Of a DNA stretch of 36,716 nucleotides, positions 21,297 to 31,088 are shown piece after piece. The notes beneath the pieces were generated by a model, which was not told the origin of the DNA, did no database searches, and saw only the letters and a list, made by a program, of their open reading frames with translations. The DNA comes from Clostridia bacterium (GTDB lineage: Bacteria > Bacillota > Clostridia > Oscillospirales > CAG-272). Made by a program: the position numbers and the translations under genes. The stretch spans positions 1 through 36,716 of the forward strand of contig JAFZPN010000079.1 of assembly GCA_017550315.1 (NCBI GenBank), in the 5' to 3' direction. Every line of letters starts with the position of its first letter. The first letter of the stretch is position 1.

Positions 21297-23660
21297 GTGA
21301 ACAAAGCCATGACGCTGATGCGGCTGGAGCCGGGGAACTCCGCCGTCATCACGGAAGTCGGAGGCGAAGGCGCGCTCCGGCAGCATTTCCTCGATATGGG
21401 CGTCATTCCGGGCGCGCGGGTGACGACGGTCAAATACGCGCCGATGGGCGACCCGATGGAGCTCATGATCCACGGGTACAAGCTGACCCTGCGCCTCGCC
21501 GACGCCGATCAGATCATCGTCGAACCGGTCGTCGACGGGGAAGAAGAGATTCCGGAGCTTTTGTCCGAGGAGAGCCGTCCGCGCAGAGAGGGATTCCACC
21601 CGGGGCTCGGCGAAGGGGGACGCTTTCATCCGAAGGGCTCGGGCGATCCGCTTCCGGAGGGAACCAAGCTGACCTTTGCGCTCGTCGGGAATCAGAACTG
21701 CGGCAAGACGACGCTTTTCAACGCGCTCACCGGGGCGAACCAGCACGTCGGGAACTTCCCGGGCGTCACCGTGGATCGCAAGGACGGCGTGATCCGCGGC
21801 TATCCCGACACGATCGTCACCGATCTGCCCGGGATCTATTCGATGTCGCCGTATTCGAGCGAGGAACTCGTCTCGCGCAATTTCGTGATGCAGGAAAAGC
21901 CGCGCGCGATCATCAACATCGTCGACGCGACGAACATCGAGCGGAATCTGTACCTCTCGATGCAGCTCCTCGAGATGAATATCCCGATGGTCATCGCGCT
22001 CAACATGATGGACGAGGTGACGGCCAACGGCGGGAGCGTAGACATCAACCGCATGGAAGAGCTGCTCGGCGTACCGGTGGTCGCGATCTCCGCGGCGAAG
22101 AATTCGGGCGTGAGCGAGCTGATCGAACACGCGGTCCACATTGCGAAATATCAGGAACGCCCGGCGAGGCAGGATCTCTGCGATGTGAAGCGGCGGGGCG
22201 GCGCGGTTCACCGCTGTCTGCACGCCATCGCGCATCTCATCGACGACCATGCCGACGCCGCGGGTCTCCCGACGAAGTTTGCGGCGTCGAAGCTGGTGGA
22301 GGGCGACCCGCTCATCCGGGATCAATTAAAGCTCGACCGGAACGAGACGGAGACCGTCGAACATATCATTTTGCAGATGGAAAAGGAATCCGGCCTCGAC
22401 CGCAGCGCAGCAGTTGCGGACATGCGCTTCGACTTCATCGGCAAGGTCTGCCGCGAGACCGTCACCAAGCCGAAGGAGAGCCGGGAACGCCGCCGCAGCG
22501 AGAAGATCGATAAGATCCTCACGGGCCGGTACACCGCGATCCCCGCGTTCATCGTGATCATGGGGCTCGTCTTCTGGCTGACCTTCGGCGTGATCGGCGC
22601 GTTCTTCCAGGACCTTCTCGAGAGCGGGATCGAATCCCTCGCCGAAGCGGTTGACCGGACGCTCACCGCGGCGAATGTCAACGAAACCCTGCACAGTCTC
22701 CTCATCGACGGGGTGATCGGCGGCGTCGGGTCCGTGCTCAGCTTCCTGCCGATCATCGTAACCCTGTTCTTCTTCCTCTCGATCCTCGAGGACAGCGGAT
22801 ACATCGCACGGGTGGCATTCGTCATGGACAAGCTCCTGCGCAAGCTCGGGCTCTCCGGACGCAGCATCGTCCCGCTCCTCGTCGGCTTCGGCTGCACGGT
22901 TCCCGCTGTCATGGCGACCCGGACCCTGCCGAGCGACCGCGACCGGAAGATGACGATCCTCCTGACGCCTTTCATGAGCTGCTCGGCAAAGGTTCCGATC
23001 TACGCCTTCTTCGTGAGCGCGTTCTTCCCGGAACACGCGGCCCTCTGGATGATCGGGCTCTACCTCCTCGGGATCGTGCTCGGCATCGGGGCGGCCTGCC
23101 TCTACCGGAATACGCTGTTCCGCGGCGAGGCAGTCCCGTTCGTGATGGAGCTCCCGGACTACCGCATGCCCGGCGCTAAGAACGTCATCCGCCTGCTCTG
23201 GGAAAAGGCAAAGGACTTCTTACAGCGCGCGTTCTCGATCATCCTCATCGCGACGGTCGTGATCTGGTTCCTCGGTCGATTCGACATACGACTCAATCTC
23301 GTCACCGATTCCCACGACAGCATCCTCGCCGCGATCTCCGGCTGGCTCGTGCCGCTCATGCGCCCGGTCGGACTCGGGGACTGGCGGATCTGCACGTCCC
23401 TCATCAGCGGCTTCATCGCGAAGGAGAGCGTCGTCTCGACGATGGAACTCCTCTTCGCGGGCGGGGCGGAGACGGCGATCTCTTCCCTCTCCGCGGCGTG
23501 TCTCCTGATCTTCTCGCTCCTCTACACCCCCTGCGTCGCGGCGGTCGCGTCCGTGCGGCGTGAGATGGGCGGGAAATGGGCTGTCATCGTAGTCGTCTGG
23601 CAGTGCGCGGTCGCGTGGGTCGCCGCCTGTATCGCGCATCTCATCGGCATCCTGCTCTGA
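21297..23660 (+). CDS. feoB: Ferrous iron transporter, FeoA-FeoB fusion
   Basis: A 787-residue protein joining two usually separate parts of the Fe(II) uptake system. Residues 1-77 are a FeoA SH3-like domain (MTLMRLEPGNSAVITEV...MGVIPGARVTTV). After a charged linker (80-122) comes the FeoB G domain: G1 GNQNCGKT (131-138), G2 Thr158 in NFPGVTVD, G3 DLPG (176-179), G4 NMMD (236-239) and a G5-like SAAKNSG. Membrane helices with the Gate motifs (SFLPIIVTLFFFLSILEDSGYIARVAF; VGFGCTVPAVMATRTL; a second PFMSCSAKVPIYAFF) follow. GTG 21297 is preferred (GGGGGG 6 nt upstream) to an ATG at 21309. It sits in the plasma membrane and imports Fe(II), as expected of an anaerobe. Confidence 0.97.
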   Translation: MNKAMTLMRLEPGNSAVITEVGGEGALRQHFLDMGVIPGARVTTVKYAPMGDPMELMIHGYKLTLRLADADQIIVEPVVDGEEEIPELLSEESRPRREGFHPGLGEGGRFHPKGSGDPLPEGTKLTFALVGNQNCGKTTLFNALTGANQHVGNFPGVTVDRKDGVIRGYPDTIVTDLPGIYSMSPYSSEELVSRNFVMQEKPRAIINIVDATNIERNLYLSMQLLEMNIPMVIALNMMDEVTANGGSVDINRMEELLGVPVVAISAAKNSGVSELIEHAVHIAKYQERPARQDLCDVKRRGGAVHRCLHAIAHLIDDHADAAGLPTKFAASKLVEGDPLIRDQLKLDRNETETVEHIILQMEKESGLDRSAAVADMRFDFIGKVCRETVTKPKESRERRRSEKIDKILTGRYTAIPAFIVIMGLVFWLTFGVIGAFFQDLLESGIESLAEAVDRTLTAANVNETLHSLLIDGVIGGVGSVLSFLPIIVTLFFFLSILEDSGYIARVAFVMDKLLRKLGLSGRSIVPLLVGFGCTVPAVMATRTLPSDRDRKMTILLTPFMSCSAKVPIYAFFVSAFFPEHAALWMIGLYLLGIVLGIGAACLYRNTLFRGEAVPFVMELPDYRMPGAKNVIRLLWEKAKDFLQRAFSIILIATVVIWFLGRFDIRLNLVTDSHDSILAAISGWLVPLMRPVGLGDWRICTSLISGFIAKESVVSTMELLFAGGAETAISSLSAACLLIFSLLYTPCVAAVASVRREMGGKWAVIVVVWQCAVAWVAACIAHLIGILL

Positions 23661-25677: not shown

Positions 25678-26163
25678 TTACTTCAGCGCGGCGCAGAAGG
25701 CCTCTATCTTCGCGTCCGTTTCGGGAGCGGGCTTGTCCTTCGGGTCGATGAGCACGAGCGTCGCGGCAAAGGCGTCGATGCCGAGGAATTTCGCGAGCTT
25801 TGCGGCGGCTTTCTCGGCGCCCGATCCGCTCATGCAGGCGAAGAAGGCGAGGGATTTGCCCGCAAGCGCGTCCCGATACCGGTCGGCGAATGTGCGGAGC
25901 GGCGGCGCGAAGGTCCCCGCCCAGATCGGCGTGCCGAGGATGATCTGTTCATAATCCTCCGCATGGAAAGCGAAGGGTTCGAGGGCGGGTTTCTCCCCCA
26001 TGACCGCGCTCTTGCCGCCCCAAAAGAACTTCCGGAAACCTTTATCCGGATAGGCCTTCTCCGGGACGAGGCGGATGAGATCCGCGCCGAGGATGCCGGC
26101 GATCCGTTCCGCGGCAAACTCCGTATTGCCGGACATGGAATAGTAAACGACTGCGGTTTTCAT
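25678..26163 (-). CDS. Flavodoxin-like protein
   Basis: A 161-residue flavodoxin-fold protein. YSMSGNTEFAA (residues 8-18) is the FMN phosphate loop and LGTPIWAGTFAPPLRTF the second flavin-contacting loop (Trp stacking). Similar proteins transfer low-potential electrons or act as small NAD(P)H-flavin oxidoreductases. It follows the glycyl radical enzyme by 25 nt on the same strand, with GGAGG 7 nt before the ATG, so the two form an operon. In E. coli flavodoxin supplies electrons to the pyruvate formate-lyase activase, so this protein may feed the activase of its partner (inference). Confidence 0.92.
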   Translation of the reverse strand: MKTAVVYYSMSGNTEFAAERIAGILGADLIRLVPEKAYPDKGFRKFFWGGKSAVMGEKPALEPFAFHAEDYEQIILGTPIWAGTFAPPLRTFADRYRDALAGKSLAFFACMSGSGAEKAAAKLAKFLGIDAFAATLVLIDPKDKPAPETDAKIEAFCAALK

Positions 26164-26188: not shown

Positions 26189-28306
26189 TTAAAGCACGCC
26201 GCCGCTCGTGCGCTCGATGATCATGTCCTGCCATTCGCGGTTGAGCGTGACGAAGCGGGCGTTCCAGCCGGAGACGCGGACCGAGAGGGTCTTGTACTCC
26301 TCGGGATGCTCCCGCGCGGCTTCGAGGACGGCGGAGTCGATCACGTCGGTCTGCATGAAGAAGCCGCCGAGCGCGACGAAGGTGCGGTACATGGCACAGA
26401 GCGCCGCGATCCCGTTCTCGCCGGAAACCGACGACGGATGCAGCCGGATATCGAGCGCGGCGCCGGAGACCTGCTTCGAGAGATCCGCCCGGCAATAGGA
26501 TTTGAGCACTGCCGTCGCCCCTTCCGCATCCGTGCCGGGCGTGGGGCTGGCGTTGCCGGAGAGGATGGCGCAGCGGCGCGTCCCCATCGGCGAGGGGATC
26601 CGTCCGGGCGCCCATTCGATCTGTCTCCCGAACGTCGAGACACCCGGAATAAAGAGGATGGGCGTTTCGTGCGCGTGGGCAAGGACCGCGTCGGCGAAAG
26701 TGTTGAGGATGCGGGAGACATACCCGTCGGCCTCCGCGTCGTCGTTGCCATAGTAGACGATCCGCTCCTTCGCGTACTGCCGCAGGGATTCCGCGCCTTC
26801 CCAGTCCCGCACGAGGAGATCTTCGAGCTCGCGGAGCGTGAGCAGCTTTTCCCGGAAGCAGAGGACGTCGATCGCGTGCAGGCTGTTTCCCGCATCCGGC
26901 GCGCCGCCGATGTGGGGGGAGAAGACCGTGTAGCGCGGTCCGCCCTCGTAATACGACCGCCCGTTCTTCGCGCAGTCCTCGGTGAAGAGCGAGATCACGG
27001 CGCACGGCGGTCCGCTGTTCTTCCAATGCCACGTCCCCGCGTCGTCGAAACTCCCCCGTCCGGTCCAGACCGCGCGGAAAACCTCGTCCGCATAGGTGCG
27101 CAGCCGCGCGGCATAGGCGTCCCAAAGCTCCTCGAAGCTTGCGTAGTCCCGCGGATGATCCGGCAGGCCGAGCACGTCGCGCATGAGGAGCGAATAGCCG
27201 TCAAAGGGACCGTAGATGAAATACGTCTCGCCGGGGATCTGCACCTCCCAGCAGCCGTCGTTGGCAAATCGCCGGGCGGCCTCGGGCGGATATCCCACGC
27301 AGGCGAGGGCGTCGAGGATCAATTCTTCGTTGTATACTGCGACGATCCCGCCGCCGTACCGCACGACCTCGGCGATCCGCTTGAGGAGCTTTTCGTCGGA
27401 ATGCCGGTTCAGGCGGACCGTGACGGGAAAGTCCGAGATGCCGAGCTCTTCGAGGATGTCAAGGACGAGATAGGTCACGGGATTCGTGACGTCCCGTCCG
27501 TCCGCGCCGATCCCGGAGAGAACGATGTTCTGGTAGTGCTGGGCGTCGCCGCTCCCCGTCGGGGTGTTCGACACGATCCATTCGCAGCCCTTGATGAAGA
27601 AGTGCGCGAAGATCTCCCGGGCCTCGTCGAGGGTAAGGCGTCCTTCGGCAAGATCGCGCGCGAGGTACGGCCCGAGCATCTCGTCGATCCGCCCGATCCC
27701 CGGCCAGTTCCCCGTGAGGCGCGTGAACGCGAAGGTGATCCACAGGCTCTGTACGGCTTCGTGGAATGTCCGGGCGGGCTGCATCGGAACGCGTTCGAGG
27801 AGAGCATGGCATTCCGGGTTCTTCTCCGCAGACTCTGCGAGGATCCGGCCGTGCCAGAGACGGAAGGCCGCCGCGGCGCGCTTCAGATAGGCGGTATAGG
27901 GCCGGTCGGCGTATTCGTCGAGCTCCGCTTCGATTCCGTCCAGCCCGAGCGTGAGGATCCGCCCGAAGCCGAGCGTCACATGACTGACGGAGGAGAGCAC
28001 CGCGCGTCCGCCACGGTAAGCCGGCACGACATGGCCGATAGCTGCGCCGAGGGTCGCCGATCCGACGATGCGTTCGCCGTCGACAAAACGGAGCGGACAC
28101 TCCGCGGCGATGGTCTCGACGGCGCGGGCGTACTGCTCGTCGGGGGAGAGTGCGTCAAAATCCGCGATTCCGTCGAGGGAGACGGCGGGATGGGCGATCG
28201 CCTCGTCACCGTACTTGCCCTTCATGCTCTCGAGGGCGTAGCGTCGCGTTTCTTCGGACAGACGGATGGGTCGTTCCCTGCCCGTTCCGCATGGGATGAT
28301 GGTCAT
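26189..28306 (-). CDS. Glycyl radical enzyme of the pyruvate formate-lyase superfamily, substrate unknown
   Basis: A 705-residue glycyl radical enzyme, shorter than pyruvate formate-lyase (~760) or glycerol dehydratase (~790). Near the C-terminus SVRVSGWNARFV holds the radical glycine (Gly680); the classical motif has Tyr after the Gly and here it is Trp. The thiyl-radical loop is NDGCWEVQIPG, with Cys352 and Glu354 in the Cys-x-Glu pattern of the eliminase/dehydratase branch, not the Cys-Cys of pyruvate formate-lyase. Cys352-x-Glu354 therefore suggests dehydration or a related elimination. A radical SAM activase is needed but none is encoded here. The start follows GGAGG by 5 nt and a good promoter; the flavodoxin gene is downstream in the same operon. 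Oxygen-sensitive by nature. Confidence 0.92.
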   Translation of the reverse strand: MTIIPCGTGRERPIRLSEETRRYALESMKGKYGDEAIAHPAVSLDGIADFDALSPDEQYARAVETIAAECPLRFVDGERIVGSATLGAAIGHVVPAYRGGRAVLSSVSHVTLGFGRILTLGLDGIEAELDEYADRPYTAYLKRAAAAFRLWHGRILAESAEKNPECHALLERVPMQPARTFHEAVQSLWITFAFTRLTGNWPGIGRIDEMLGPYLARDLAEGRLTLDEAREIFAHFFIKGCEWIVSNTPTGSGDAQHYQNIVLSGIGADGRDVTNPVTYLVLDILEELGISDFPVTVRLNRHSDEKLLKRIAEVVRYGGGIVAVYNEELILDALACVGYPPEAARRFANDGCWEVQIPGETYFIYGPFDGYSLLMRDVLGLPDHPRDYASFEELWDAYAARLRTYADEVFRAVWTGRGSFDDAGTWHWKNSGPPCAVISLFTEDCAKNGRSYYEGGPRYTVFSPHIGGAPDAGNSLHAIDVLCFREKLLTLRELEDLLVRDWEGAESLRQYAKERIVYYGNDDAEADGYVSRILNTFADAVLAHAHETPILFIPGVSTFGRQIEWAPGRIPSPMGTRRCAILSGNASPTPGTDAEGATAVLKSYCRADLSKQVSGAALDIRLHPSSVSGENGIAALCAMYRTFVALGGFFMQTDVIDSAVLEAAREHPEEYKTLSVRVSGWNARFVTLNREWQDMIIERTSGGVL

Positions 28307-28473: not shown

Positions 28474-29607
28474 ATGTTTCAGCATCACGACATCACCCGC
28501 GACGCCTGCATGCTGCGCGGACCGCTCCGTCACCGCGGCTACGACTGGTGGTGGCATTCGTTCACGGCACAGGACGCAGAAACCGGGGAGGATCGCCCGT
28601 TCTTCATCGAATTCTTCCTCTGTAACCCCGCGCTCGGCGGAGACGAACCGATCCTCGGTCAGCTCCCCGCAAACCGCGAGGCGGGACGGCTGCCATCCTA
28701 CCTGATGGTCAAGGCAGGCGCGTGGGGCAAAGATCCGCGTCAGCTGCACCGTTTTTTCGGATGGAACCGGGTGAAGGTCCGCATGGACGCGCCGTATGCC
28801 GTCGAGGCGGACGACTGCACGGCCTCCGAAACGCGCCTGACGGGACACATTTCGATCACGCCCGAGGAGGCCGCGGCTCATCCGGAATGGATGTGCGACG
28901 CCGGGGAGATGGCGTGGGATCTGATTGTCGACAAGCAGATCGCGTTCAACGTCGGATACGGGGCGAGCAAACCCCTGCGCGACGCCGAAGCCTTCGCGAT
29001 GTACTGGCACGCGGAGGGCATGAAGAGCGCATACGCCGGGACCGTCACCTTCGGCGGCAGGACCTACACCGTCACGCCGGAGAAGAGCTTCGGATATGCC
29101 GACAAGAACTGGGGCCGTGACTTCACGAGTCCGTGGGTCTGGCTCGCCTCCTCCTGCCTGACGAGCCGGATCACGGGAAAGCGGCTCGAAAACAGCGCGT
29201 TCGACATCGGCGGCGGGCGTCCGAAGATCTATTTCGTCCCGCTGGAGAGGCGGCTGCTCGGCGCGTTCTGGTACGAGGGGCGGGAATACGATTTCAATTT
29301 CTCCCACGTCTGGCTCAACGTCAAAACGGAGTTCTCCTTCGAGGAGCGGGAGGACGAGGTTGCCTGGCACGTGCGGCAGGAGAACATCCGCGCCGCGATG
29401 GAGACCGAGATCACGTGCAAAAAGTCCGAGATGCTCCTCGTTAACTACGAAGCGCCGGACGGAACAAAAAAACATAACCGGCTCTTCAACGGCGGAGGCG
29501 GCCGCGGAATCGTCCGGCTGTATGACAAGGTCGGCGGCACGCTCACGCTCGTCGATGAGATCGAAGCGACGCACGTCGGATGCGAATACGGGGAATATGG
29601 AGAATGA
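28474..29607 (+). CDS. Tocopherol cyclase-like (lipocalin-type) protein
   Basis: A 377-residue protein rich in Trp and Tyr with two blocks of the tocopherol cyclase family: GYDWWWHSF near the N-terminus (residues 22-30) and SFGYADKNWGRDFTSPWVWL in the middle (about 207-226). In plants the family closes the chromanol ring of vitamin E; bacterial members of non-photosynthetic species have no proven substrate and may bind or alter a hydrophobic ligand. The remainder is beta-rich (RPKIYFVPLERRLLGAFWYEG; VAWHVRQENIRAAMETE), as expected of a paired lipocalin-like barrel. No signal peptide. GGGAGGA precedes the ATG by 4-5 nt. It shares an operon with an ACT-domain protein, 2 nt further on. Confidence 0.85.
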   Translation: MFQHHDITRDACMLRGPLRHRGYDWWWHSFTAQDAETGEDRPFFIEFFLCNPALGGDEPILGQLPANREAGRLPSYLMVKAGAWGKDPRQLHRFFGWNRVKVRMDAPYAVEADDCTASETRLTGHISITPEEAAAHPEWMCDAGEMAWDLIVDKQIAFNVGYGASKPLRDAEAFAMYWHAEGMKSAYAGTVTFGGRTYTVTPEKSFGYADKNWGRDFTSPWVWLASSCLTSRITGKRLENSAFDIGGGRPKIYFVPLERRLLGAFWYEGREYDFNFSHVWLNVKTEFSFEEREDEVAWHVRQENIRAAMETEITCKKSEMLLVNYEAPDGTKKHNRLFNGGGGRGIVRLYDKVGGTLTLVDEIEATHVGCEYGEYGE

Positions 29608-29609
29608 CG

Positions 29610-29975
29610 ATGGAACTCGAAGCGCTGGATTTTGCCCTCACGGTCTCGAAGCTGAAAATGGACGCGCGGATCAACTGCGCGGCGGACTTCTTCTTTCTCG
29701 GCAAAACGGACGAAGAGCTCTCGCTCGTGTGCCGCACGGAGGACACGCCGGCAGAGACGCTCGCGCGGGAGGACGGCTGGCGAGGTTTCCGGGTGCGGGG
29801 TGTGCTCAACTTCTCCCTCACCGGCATCCTCGCGCGTCTGACCGCCATCCTTGCTGAGGCAGAAATCGGCATTTTCGCCGTCTCGACCTACAACACGGAC
29901 TATATCCTTGTGAAGGAAAAGGATTTTGACCGCGCCGTCCGGGCTCTCACCGAGGCGGGATACCGTTTCGTGTGA
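29610..29975 (+). CDS. ACT-domain amino-acid-sensing protein (CASTOR/ACT_7-like)
   Basis: A 121-residue protein with two ACT-like halves: residues 1-55 (ELEALDFALTVSKLKMDARI...FFFLGKTDEELSLVCRTEDTP) and 60-121, where NFSLTGILARLTAILAEAEIGIFAVSTYNTDYILV is a clear beta-alpha-beta ACT core. Such stand-alone proteins bind small ligands, mostly amino acids, and control partner enzymes. ATG 29610 is chosen over ATG 29604 because GGAGA (29599-29603) is 6 nt from the first and touches the second. Its stop lies one base from the stop of the convergent eutH gene, with no room for a terminator. Confidence 0.88.
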   Translation: MELEALDFALTVSKLKMDARINCAADFFFLGKTDEELSLVCRTEDTPAETLAREDGWRGFRVRGVLNFSLTGILARLTAILAEAEIGIFAVSTYNTDYILVKEKDFDRAVRALTEAGYRFV

Positions 29976-29976
29976 A

Positions 29977-31056
29977 TCATTCGGCGTGCTTTTCCCGCGT
30001 GAGGAGCATGGCCAGAGCGATCGCCGCGATCCCGCCCGCGAGCTTGCCCACGATGAGGGGCACGGCGGTCGACGGATCGACGGAGAGCTGGAACGCGAGG
30101 TGATCGCCGATCATGAAGGACGCCGGCACGAGGAACGCGGCGTTCACCACGAGTCCGCGGTCGTTCATGTTCTTCGTCATCCCGAACATGGGGATCGCGT
30201 TGACCGAGGTCGTGACGATCCCGAGGATCGATGCCCCGTCCATCCCGGTCCGCGCGCCGAGGCGTTCAAAGAAGCGGCCGCAGAGTTTTTCGAGGAAGTA
30301 CAGGATCGTGAACGCACCGGCGAGGAAGATCGCGATGGTGCCGATCACGAGCATGCCCTCGTCGAAGGTCCCGAAGTCCGGAACGTCCCAGTTCATCACC
30401 TTGACGACCATCGCGGCGGCGAGGGCGGCGGTGAGGATCGCCGTCAGCAGATACCCGAAGACCGTGACGATCTTCACGGTCACGCGCTCGGCGAAGAGAA
30501 GCCCGATCACGAAGAGCGCGGAAAAGAGGAAGAGCGGCGTCAGATTACATAAGAGCGTCCGGATTCCCACCCCGAGGCAGAGACCGCCGACAAAACAGGC
30601 GACGGGGACCGTGCAGAGGCCGATCGCCAGACCTTTGGCGAGTAGCGGCTTGCGTTCCTTCGGCGTCAGGGCGAATCCGACGGGAAAGGCGAACATGACG
30701 GCACATCCCATGGTGCTCCCGACGACCGACCCATTCAGCCGTCCGACGGCGGGATCCCTGGCGAGTGCCAGCGCGAGCGGCCATCCGCCCGAATCGTCGG
30801 CGAGGAGAAGCCCCGCGAGCAGGGACGGATCGAGGCCGAGCTTCCCGCAGACCGGGGTGAGGACCGGCGAGAGGAGCTTGGCGATGAGGGGCGCGATCGC
30901 AATGGGGCCGATCATCGCGAGGATGAGGGTGCCCGACGCCTCAAAGCCGCGCTCGAAGGCCTTGCCGGGACCGAACCGGCAGCCGATGGCCCGGTCCGCC
31001 GCGCCGATCAGGGCGAAGAAGAGCATGATGACGGAGATCCAGGTGCCCGCATCCAT
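29977..31056 (-). CDS. eutH: EutH-like ethanolamine/small-solute transporter
   Basis: A 359-residue membrane protein with about ten helices that matches EutH along its length: an N-terminal helix with FALIGAADRAIG, ASGTLILAMIGPIAIAPLIAKLL, SLLAGLLLADDSGGWPLA and the C-terminal block SVNAIPMFGMTKNMNDRGLVVNAAFLVPASFMIGDHLAF. EutH brings ethanolamine into the cell in eut operons. It is about 50 residues shorter than the E. coli protein. No other eut gene (EutB/C lyase, shell proteins) is in view, so this is an orphan copy or it carries another small amine or alcohol. ATG 31056 follows GGAGG by 6 nt; an upstream in-frame ATG at 31086 falls before the ribosome site. It lies 83 nt behind the CotH gene on the same strand. 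Confidence 0.88.
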   Translation of the reverse strand: MDAGTWISVIMLFFALIGAADRAIGCRFGPGKAFERGFEASGTLILAMIGPIAIAPLIAKLLSPVLTPVCGKLGLDPSLLAGLLLADDSGGWPLALALARDPAVGRLNGSVVGSTMGCAVMFAFPVGFALTPKERKPLLAKGLAIGLCTVPVACFVGGLCLGVGIRTLLCNLTPLFLFSALFVIGLLFAERVTVKIVTVFGYLLTAILTAALAAAMVVKVMNWDVPDFGTFDEGMLVIGTIAIFLAGAFTILYFLEKLCGRFFERLGARTGMDGASILGIVTTSVNAIPMFGMTKNMNDRGLVVNAAFLVPASFMIGDHLAFQLSVDPSTAVPLIVGKLAGGIAAIALAMLLTREKHAE

Positions 31057-31088
31057 GAGAAGCCTCCCCTTTCCGAGTTTTCGCACAG

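Follow-up and report, generated by a model that had tools for sequence, protein, structure and literature searches.

The window, by which we mean the whole stretch of 36,716 nucleotides analysed here, encodes on its minus strand a glycyl radical enzyme (GRE) of 705 amino acids, with a gene for a flavodoxin-like protein directly downstream and one for an EutH-family transporter upstream (Table 1). Genes were called with a codon-model caller in this G+C-rich DNA, where another caller picked antisense shadows. Two opposed genes on the plus strand (28474-29607 and 29604-29975) lie between the EutH gene and the GRE; one is weakly tocopherol cyclase-like, below cut-off, and one has an ACT domain. 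Elsewhere in the window, a long open reading frame (21297-23660) resembles by eye a FeoA-FeoB fusion iron transporter and was grouped with FeoB-like genes.

Table 1. Features of the compact glycyl radical enzyme gene and of its minus-strand neighbours in the window.
Feature	Positions	Strand	Basis
Compact glycyl radical enzyme, 705 aa	26189..28306	-	Open reading frame; PF02901 and PF01228 over cut-off; 77-sequence alignment
Gly680 codon, predicted radical site (RVSGW)	26267..26269	-	G in 77/77; fingerprint RVXG[FWY] as given in PMC11528403
Arg561 codon, invariant in the family	26624..26626	-	Alignments; predicted to face the substrate
Cys352-Trp353-Glu354 codons, thiyl loop, C-x-E eliminase motif	27245..27253	-	GCWE in 81/81
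His109 codon	27980..27982	-	H in 77/77; in register with the glycerol dehydratase His
Residues 87-95, site at which conventional GREs have about 60 further residues (N-terminal helical region) that are apparently absent here	28022..28048	-	Profile and MAFFT alignments
Flavodoxin-like protein, 161 aa, 25 bp downstream of the GRE	25678..26163	-	PF12682/PF12724 over cut-off
EutH-family transporter, upstream of the GRE	29977..31086	-	PF04346, 341.4 bits

The protein has a mid-protein cysteine and both Pfam domains over their cut-offs (PFL-like, 257.5 bits against 24.3; Gly_radical, 72.5 bits against 22.2), which places it in the GRE superfamily, and it matched 36 distinct solved-structure sequences. 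PflD (765 aa), glycerol dehydratase (1r8w, 787) and the HypD model (784) are all longer, in agreement with what had been said of the protein's size in the sequence-only reading. About 60 N-terminal residues of conventional GREs seem to be missing from the window GRE: the profile alignment passes directly from position 86 of the 1r8w chain to position 153, with an N-terminal piece scoring only 2.8 bits, and the same gap appears in the MAFFT alignment. The sequence-only reading had also located the motifs correctly, with Cys352 and Glu354 in a GCWE loop and Gly680 in RVSGW, and GCWE recurred in every one of the 81 sequences compared (the window and 80 fetched loci). The radical loop reads RVSGW in 79 of these sequences and RISGW in one, and falls in a gap in one; the loss of the loop in homologues, for which that reading had proposed to look, was not found. 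Its description of RVSGW as non-classical does not hold, and RVSGW is not novel in itself. The C-terminal GRE fingerprint given in PMC11528403 is RVXG[FWY], which RVSGW satisfies, so the radical loop of the window GRE is ordinary. The same applies to the thiyl loop, which, judged from its sequence, is an ordinary eliminase motif: C-x-E in the cysteine loop marks the GRE eliminases in PMC7077986, where the roles of C-x-E and of the histidine are described, and GCWE conforms to it.

An alignment of 77 sequences, comprising the window and 76 of the 80 loci, shows no variation at eight residues (H109, R196, H257, C352, E354, R561, Q562, and G680); L055, L058, L059, and L105 were left out because they were truncated or lacked an open frame from the start of the match. 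Residues were placed by sequence alignment throughout. In the His109 column, five of the seven conventional GRE rows have His (PflD, YbiW, L030, L032, and L034), and L033 and L039 have Glu. Invariant Arg561 lies in the beta-8-equivalent strand, which reads STFGRQIEW in the family; its column holds Ile, Ala, Cys or Gly in the aligned solved GREs, Ala in YbiW and PflD, and Arg again in another GRE of the same genome (C212-type). Residue 202 is Pro in 63, Ser in 12 and Thr in 2 of the 77 sequences and is followed by an invariant Gly203.

The family is conserved beyond the window's genome. Among 291 sampled genomes of the class, it was found in 15 including the window's own, the other 14 carrying it at 48-64% identity (with a split or partial match in three of them), and the next matches beyond the family dropped to 28-34% identity. 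When 84,980 species genomes were scanned, relatives were encoded in 189 stretches at E≤1e-3. The best 80 of these, at 49-89% identity, were kept, and their titles refer mostly to Clostridia, Oscillospiraceae and other Bacillota, mostly as MAGs and with many from animal guts. In a 71-row GRE tree, the 24 family rows grouped together on a single branch (100%), separate from the 16 rows labelled full-length; this was a quick tree with long rows (L186, L190, and own_L129), of which L186 and L190 may have wrong frames, and we relied on the 100% support for the family and on nothing else in it. None of the NCBIfam GRE classes reached its cut-off with the window protein. The best scores were 254 bits for PFL2-3, a broad subfamily (cut-off 678), and 240.5 for HypD (NF043068; 1100); scores far below the cut-offs were also obtained for the sulfopropanediol dehydratases (210.1 and 176.7; 1000 each), CutC (190.9; 1050), indoleacetate decarboxylase (164.7; 1100), HPAD (139.7; 1150), and PFL (72.3; 994.2). 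That no assigned class fits, as had been supposed at the outset, was thus confirmed for the characterised classes tested, and no clustering with a characterised class emerged. The window GRE represents a conserved, uncharacterised, compact GRE family, on which, as on a glycyl radical ethanolamine lyase, no paper came up in searches of the open PMC library. Since no tested class fits and the family stands on its own branch, the substrate or the reaction may be a new one. As far as its sequences tell, the family is unusual in lacking a class fit, in its differing binding residues and in its missing N-terminal residues, and not in its radical loop.

Gene context was compared across the loci, 14 of which were delimited by identity and context as the window's clade; the 12 clade rows in the family tree form one branch with a support of 99. 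A flavodoxin gene also follows the GRE in two other loci, L044 and L045, at a distance of 19 bp, and its product could plausibly pass electrons to a radical SAM activase. In the same two loci, EutH is the next gene upstream of the GRE, and the two plus-strand genes that intervene in the window are absent there. EutH was clustered with the GRE at none of the other 78 family loci. Furthermore, a GDPD gene is divergently oriented upstream of the GRE at 10 of the 14 clade loci (Pfam checked for 2). Outside the clade, an AraC-type gene is the nearest upstream opposite-strand gene at 29 of 59 loci (Pfam checked for 2), and it occurs at 0 of the 14 clade loci. A downstream gene shared across the family was sought, and none was found beyond the activase and AraC. 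At two family loci, L087 and L063, a second GRE lies one gene further downstream, behind an activase in L087 (12019-14529) and behind a gene of 368 aa in L063.

According to PMC11528403, the partner radical SAM activase is usually encoded near its GRE, although this arrangement is typical and not strict. A TIGR02494 search at E≤0.001 gave no match on the window's contig. At loci with at least 500 bp of downstream sequence, a same-strand activase was present within 600 bp downstream at 49 of 63 loci outside the window's clade and at 0 of 13 inside it, the clade having been delimited ahead of this count. The earlier statement that no activase is nearby is therefore correct for the window's contig and clade, but not for the family at large. 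A linked activase is missing at 14 of the 63 loci outside the clade too, and its presence and absence require at least 8 changes over the family tree, so that unlinking appears recurrent and not special to the window's clade.

The separation of GREs from activases extends to other GREs of these organisms. In the six closest genomes (the window's own, G000, which is 85% complete, and G291-G295), 27 GREs were counted by eye (5, 2, 5, 5, 5, and 5, respectively), together with 11 activases over the TIGR02494 cut-off (2, 1, 2, 2, 2, and 2), and no GRE shares a contig with such an activase. In the window's genome, the GREs on contigs C77, C22, and C94 have flanks of at least 5 kb without an activase, and the one on C212 is located at a contig end. 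The five GREs of this genome (including L126-L129) are mutually 26-33% identical, none having an activase in the stretches read, and the C22-type GRE is followed by a gene resembling by eye a GH95 fucosidase. The further clade genomes G296-G299 have 14, 18, 12, and 14 GREs, and several GREs of other types adjoin activases there.

Two activases over the TIGR02494 cut-off were found in the window's genome in the search for an unpaired activase that the sequence-only reading had advised, one of them a stand-alone gene, ACT1, on contig C151. ACT1 carries the CX3CX2C motif and occurs in the same gene block at all nine loci read (G000, G291-G296, G298, and G299); a GNAT-like gene adjoins it in eight of these, and other genes of the block adjoin it in G293. 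In the activase tree, 30 of the 32 family-linked activases form one branch (100/97), and ACT1 groups with L133 and L136 as the sister of this branch (96/92). Descent of ACT1 from within the family-linked activases was considered and is not supported, given this sister position. The two remaining family-linked activases (L117 and L121) and ACT2 are placed further off, and three loci of G298 and G299 link an ACT2-type activase with a C94-type GRE. Given these placements and linkages, ACT1 is the likelier partner of the window GRE, and, as a linked activase is missing in the clade, activation in trans by ACT1 is most likely. ACT1 may serve other GREs of the genome as well. Elsewhere, one ACT1-like activase is linked to a C212-type GRE (in G301) and two are linked to GREs of no assigned type. 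Each of the six closest genomes also has a weaker radical SAM match of 75-87 bits, below the TIGR02494 cut-off; in the window's genome, a short radical SAM-like protein with 87 bits (L130 2666-3337, contig C193) is possibly another activator.

Other GRE types were seen alongside the family. The GRE on contig C212 of the window's genome (L128 4486-6747) and nine relatives (L043, L172, L173, L178-L182, and L191) make up a second compact type, in which a GCNQ thiyl loop (Cys-Asn-Gln) replaces Cys-x-Glu in all ten rows looked at. IslA and HypD lose their activity when the Glu is replaced by Gln, according to PMC8473560 and PMC7077986, so the chemistry of the GCNQ type may differ. Several Clostridia genomes have 12-18 Gly_radical matches: G296-G299 (18 in G297) and also four genomes of the class sample, G043, G053, G084, and G102, with at least 14-15 each. 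Many of these matches have open frames limited to 660-760 aa; the assemblies are mostly fragmented, and some contain contamination.

Taking these results together, we lean towards a functional GRE of an uncharacterised compact family, with eliminase chemistry and activation in trans, most likely by ACT1. In such an enzyme, a radical SAM activase would install the radical on Gly680, from which it would pass to Cys352, and hydrogen abstraction, elimination, and hydrogen return would follow as in known GRE eliminases. Glu354, tuned by His109, would handle a hydroxyl of the substrate while the neighbouring group leaves. Invariant Arg196, His257, Arg561, and Gln562 suggest a substrate that is small, highly oxygenated, and possibly anionic. 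In the sequence alignment, the acid and binding-residue positions of known eliminases are not kept in the window GRE, so that step is left unaccounted for by the eliminase reading. Further points weigh against this overall explanation: the window's genome is 85% complete, a weaker radical SAM match occurs in each of the six closest genomes, unlinking recurs outside the clade, GREs of other types adjoin activases in G296-G299, ACT1-like genes elsewhere are linked to other GRE types, and none of the neighbouring genes identifies a substrate. One might instead take the absence of a linked activase, consistent at all 13 clade loci whose downstream sequence was long enough, as decay of a GRE that is radical-inactive in the window's clade; we regard this as very improbable, as the 12 clade rows of the alignment retain Gly680, Cys352, Glu354, and His109 and the open frame is 705 aa long in the window and in L044-L048. 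A place for the window GRE within a known class, for example as a divergent HypD, CutC, HPAD or glycerol dehydratase, is also improbable. The last of these is the closest solved chain by profile (345 bits), but the window GRE falls hundreds of bits short of the NCBIfam equivalog cut-offs, the class-specific binding residues are not conserved in the sequence alignment, and the branch of the family is separate.

The remaining explanations concern the substrate. A narrower form of the eliminase explanation would make the window GRE a ring-opening or dehydrating eliminase of a sugar- or polyol-derived compound, like YbiW and PflD, feeding its product into central metabolism and, in roughly half of the family outside the clade, being controlled by AraC. 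The AraC-type gene outside the clade, scattered sugar-related neighbours recognised by eye and the many invariant polar residues are consistent with it, as is the activity of YbiW and PflD on anhydrohexitol phosphates reported in the review PMC12441222; but AraC is absent from the clade, inspection of the neighbourhood by eye showed no PTS gene, only the activase and AraC are widely shared, and the beta-1 and beta-8 motifs are unlike those of YbiW and PflD. We consider this a real possibility, though one we would not expect to hold. Somewhat more doubtful is the proposal that the enzyme carries out a new reaction on a substrate unassigned to any GRE and that ACT1 acts as a hub for several GREs of only about 26-33% identity. 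In this clade only, the neighbouring EutH and GDPD genes are a hint of ethanolamine or glycerophosphodiester metabolism, and they would suit a B12-independent ethanolamine or amino alcohol lyase, with EutH importing the substrate, GDPD releasing it, and the GRE eliminating ammonia. EutH was found in all eight genomes searched, with one copy in each of the six closest, in all six of which EutB was sought and absent, and in G296 it adjoins a gene resembling GDPD by eye (L213). However, EutH lies about 3 kb from a C77-type GRE in G293 and elsewhere in G294 and G295, and this explanation stays weak because the position of EutH varies. Arg561 would be ill-suited to a cationic substrate, and none of the genes next to the GRE was recognised as aldehyde-handling. 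An ethanolamine lyase is accordingly among the least probable of the explanations considered here.

Several of the most demanding anaerobic reactions of gut metabolism are catalysed by GREs, and the assignment of new classes has brought substrates and pathways to light. The interest of the present family lies in an unlinked and perhaps shared activase and in a substrate yet to be assigned. If one activase serves several GREs, the pairing of GREs with activators by genome position fails in these bacteria, and a shared ACT1 would be a natural test case for what activases recognise.

Compared with known systems, the window GRE shares with glycerol dehydratase (1r8w) and propanediol dehydratase (5i2a) the C-x-E loop, a His at the position of His109 and a canonical Gly loop, and 1r8w also has a Tyr aligned with Y258 of the family. 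Unlike 1r8w, it is 82 residues shorter, and none of three residues that we take to bind the diol in glycerol and propanediol dehydratases (His281, Ser282, and Asp447) is kept in its profile alignment to 1r8w: His281 and Ser282 correspond to Pro, Ser or Thr at residue 202 and to Gly203, and Asp447 corresponds to Tyr365, where MAFFT places a gap in the loop. HypD (6vxc; NF043068) likewise has C-x-E, and the HypD-like row L030 has its His in register with His109, but the NCBIfam score is far below the HypD cut-off and Asp278, essential in HypD according to PMC7077986, aligns with residue 202 of the family. For isethionate sulfite-lyase, PMC8473560 gives Arg189, Gln193, and Arg678 as marker residues; the family profile as a whole scored 271 bits against 7kq3. 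In YbiW and PflD of E. coli, the His, the C-x-E (CIE and CVE, respectively) and the Gly loop align with those of the window GRE. They differ from it in their beta-1 and beta-8 motifs, in an N-terminal region that is absent from the window GRE (YbiW has 810 aa), and in having an adjacent activase gene. The aminoacyl radical enzymes, as described in PMC11528403, are similarly GRE-like, of unknown function, mostly from gut MAGs and nearest to eliminases; in them Ala, Ser or Thr replaces the radical Gly, whereas the compact family retains Gly680 throughout its 77 aligned sequences.
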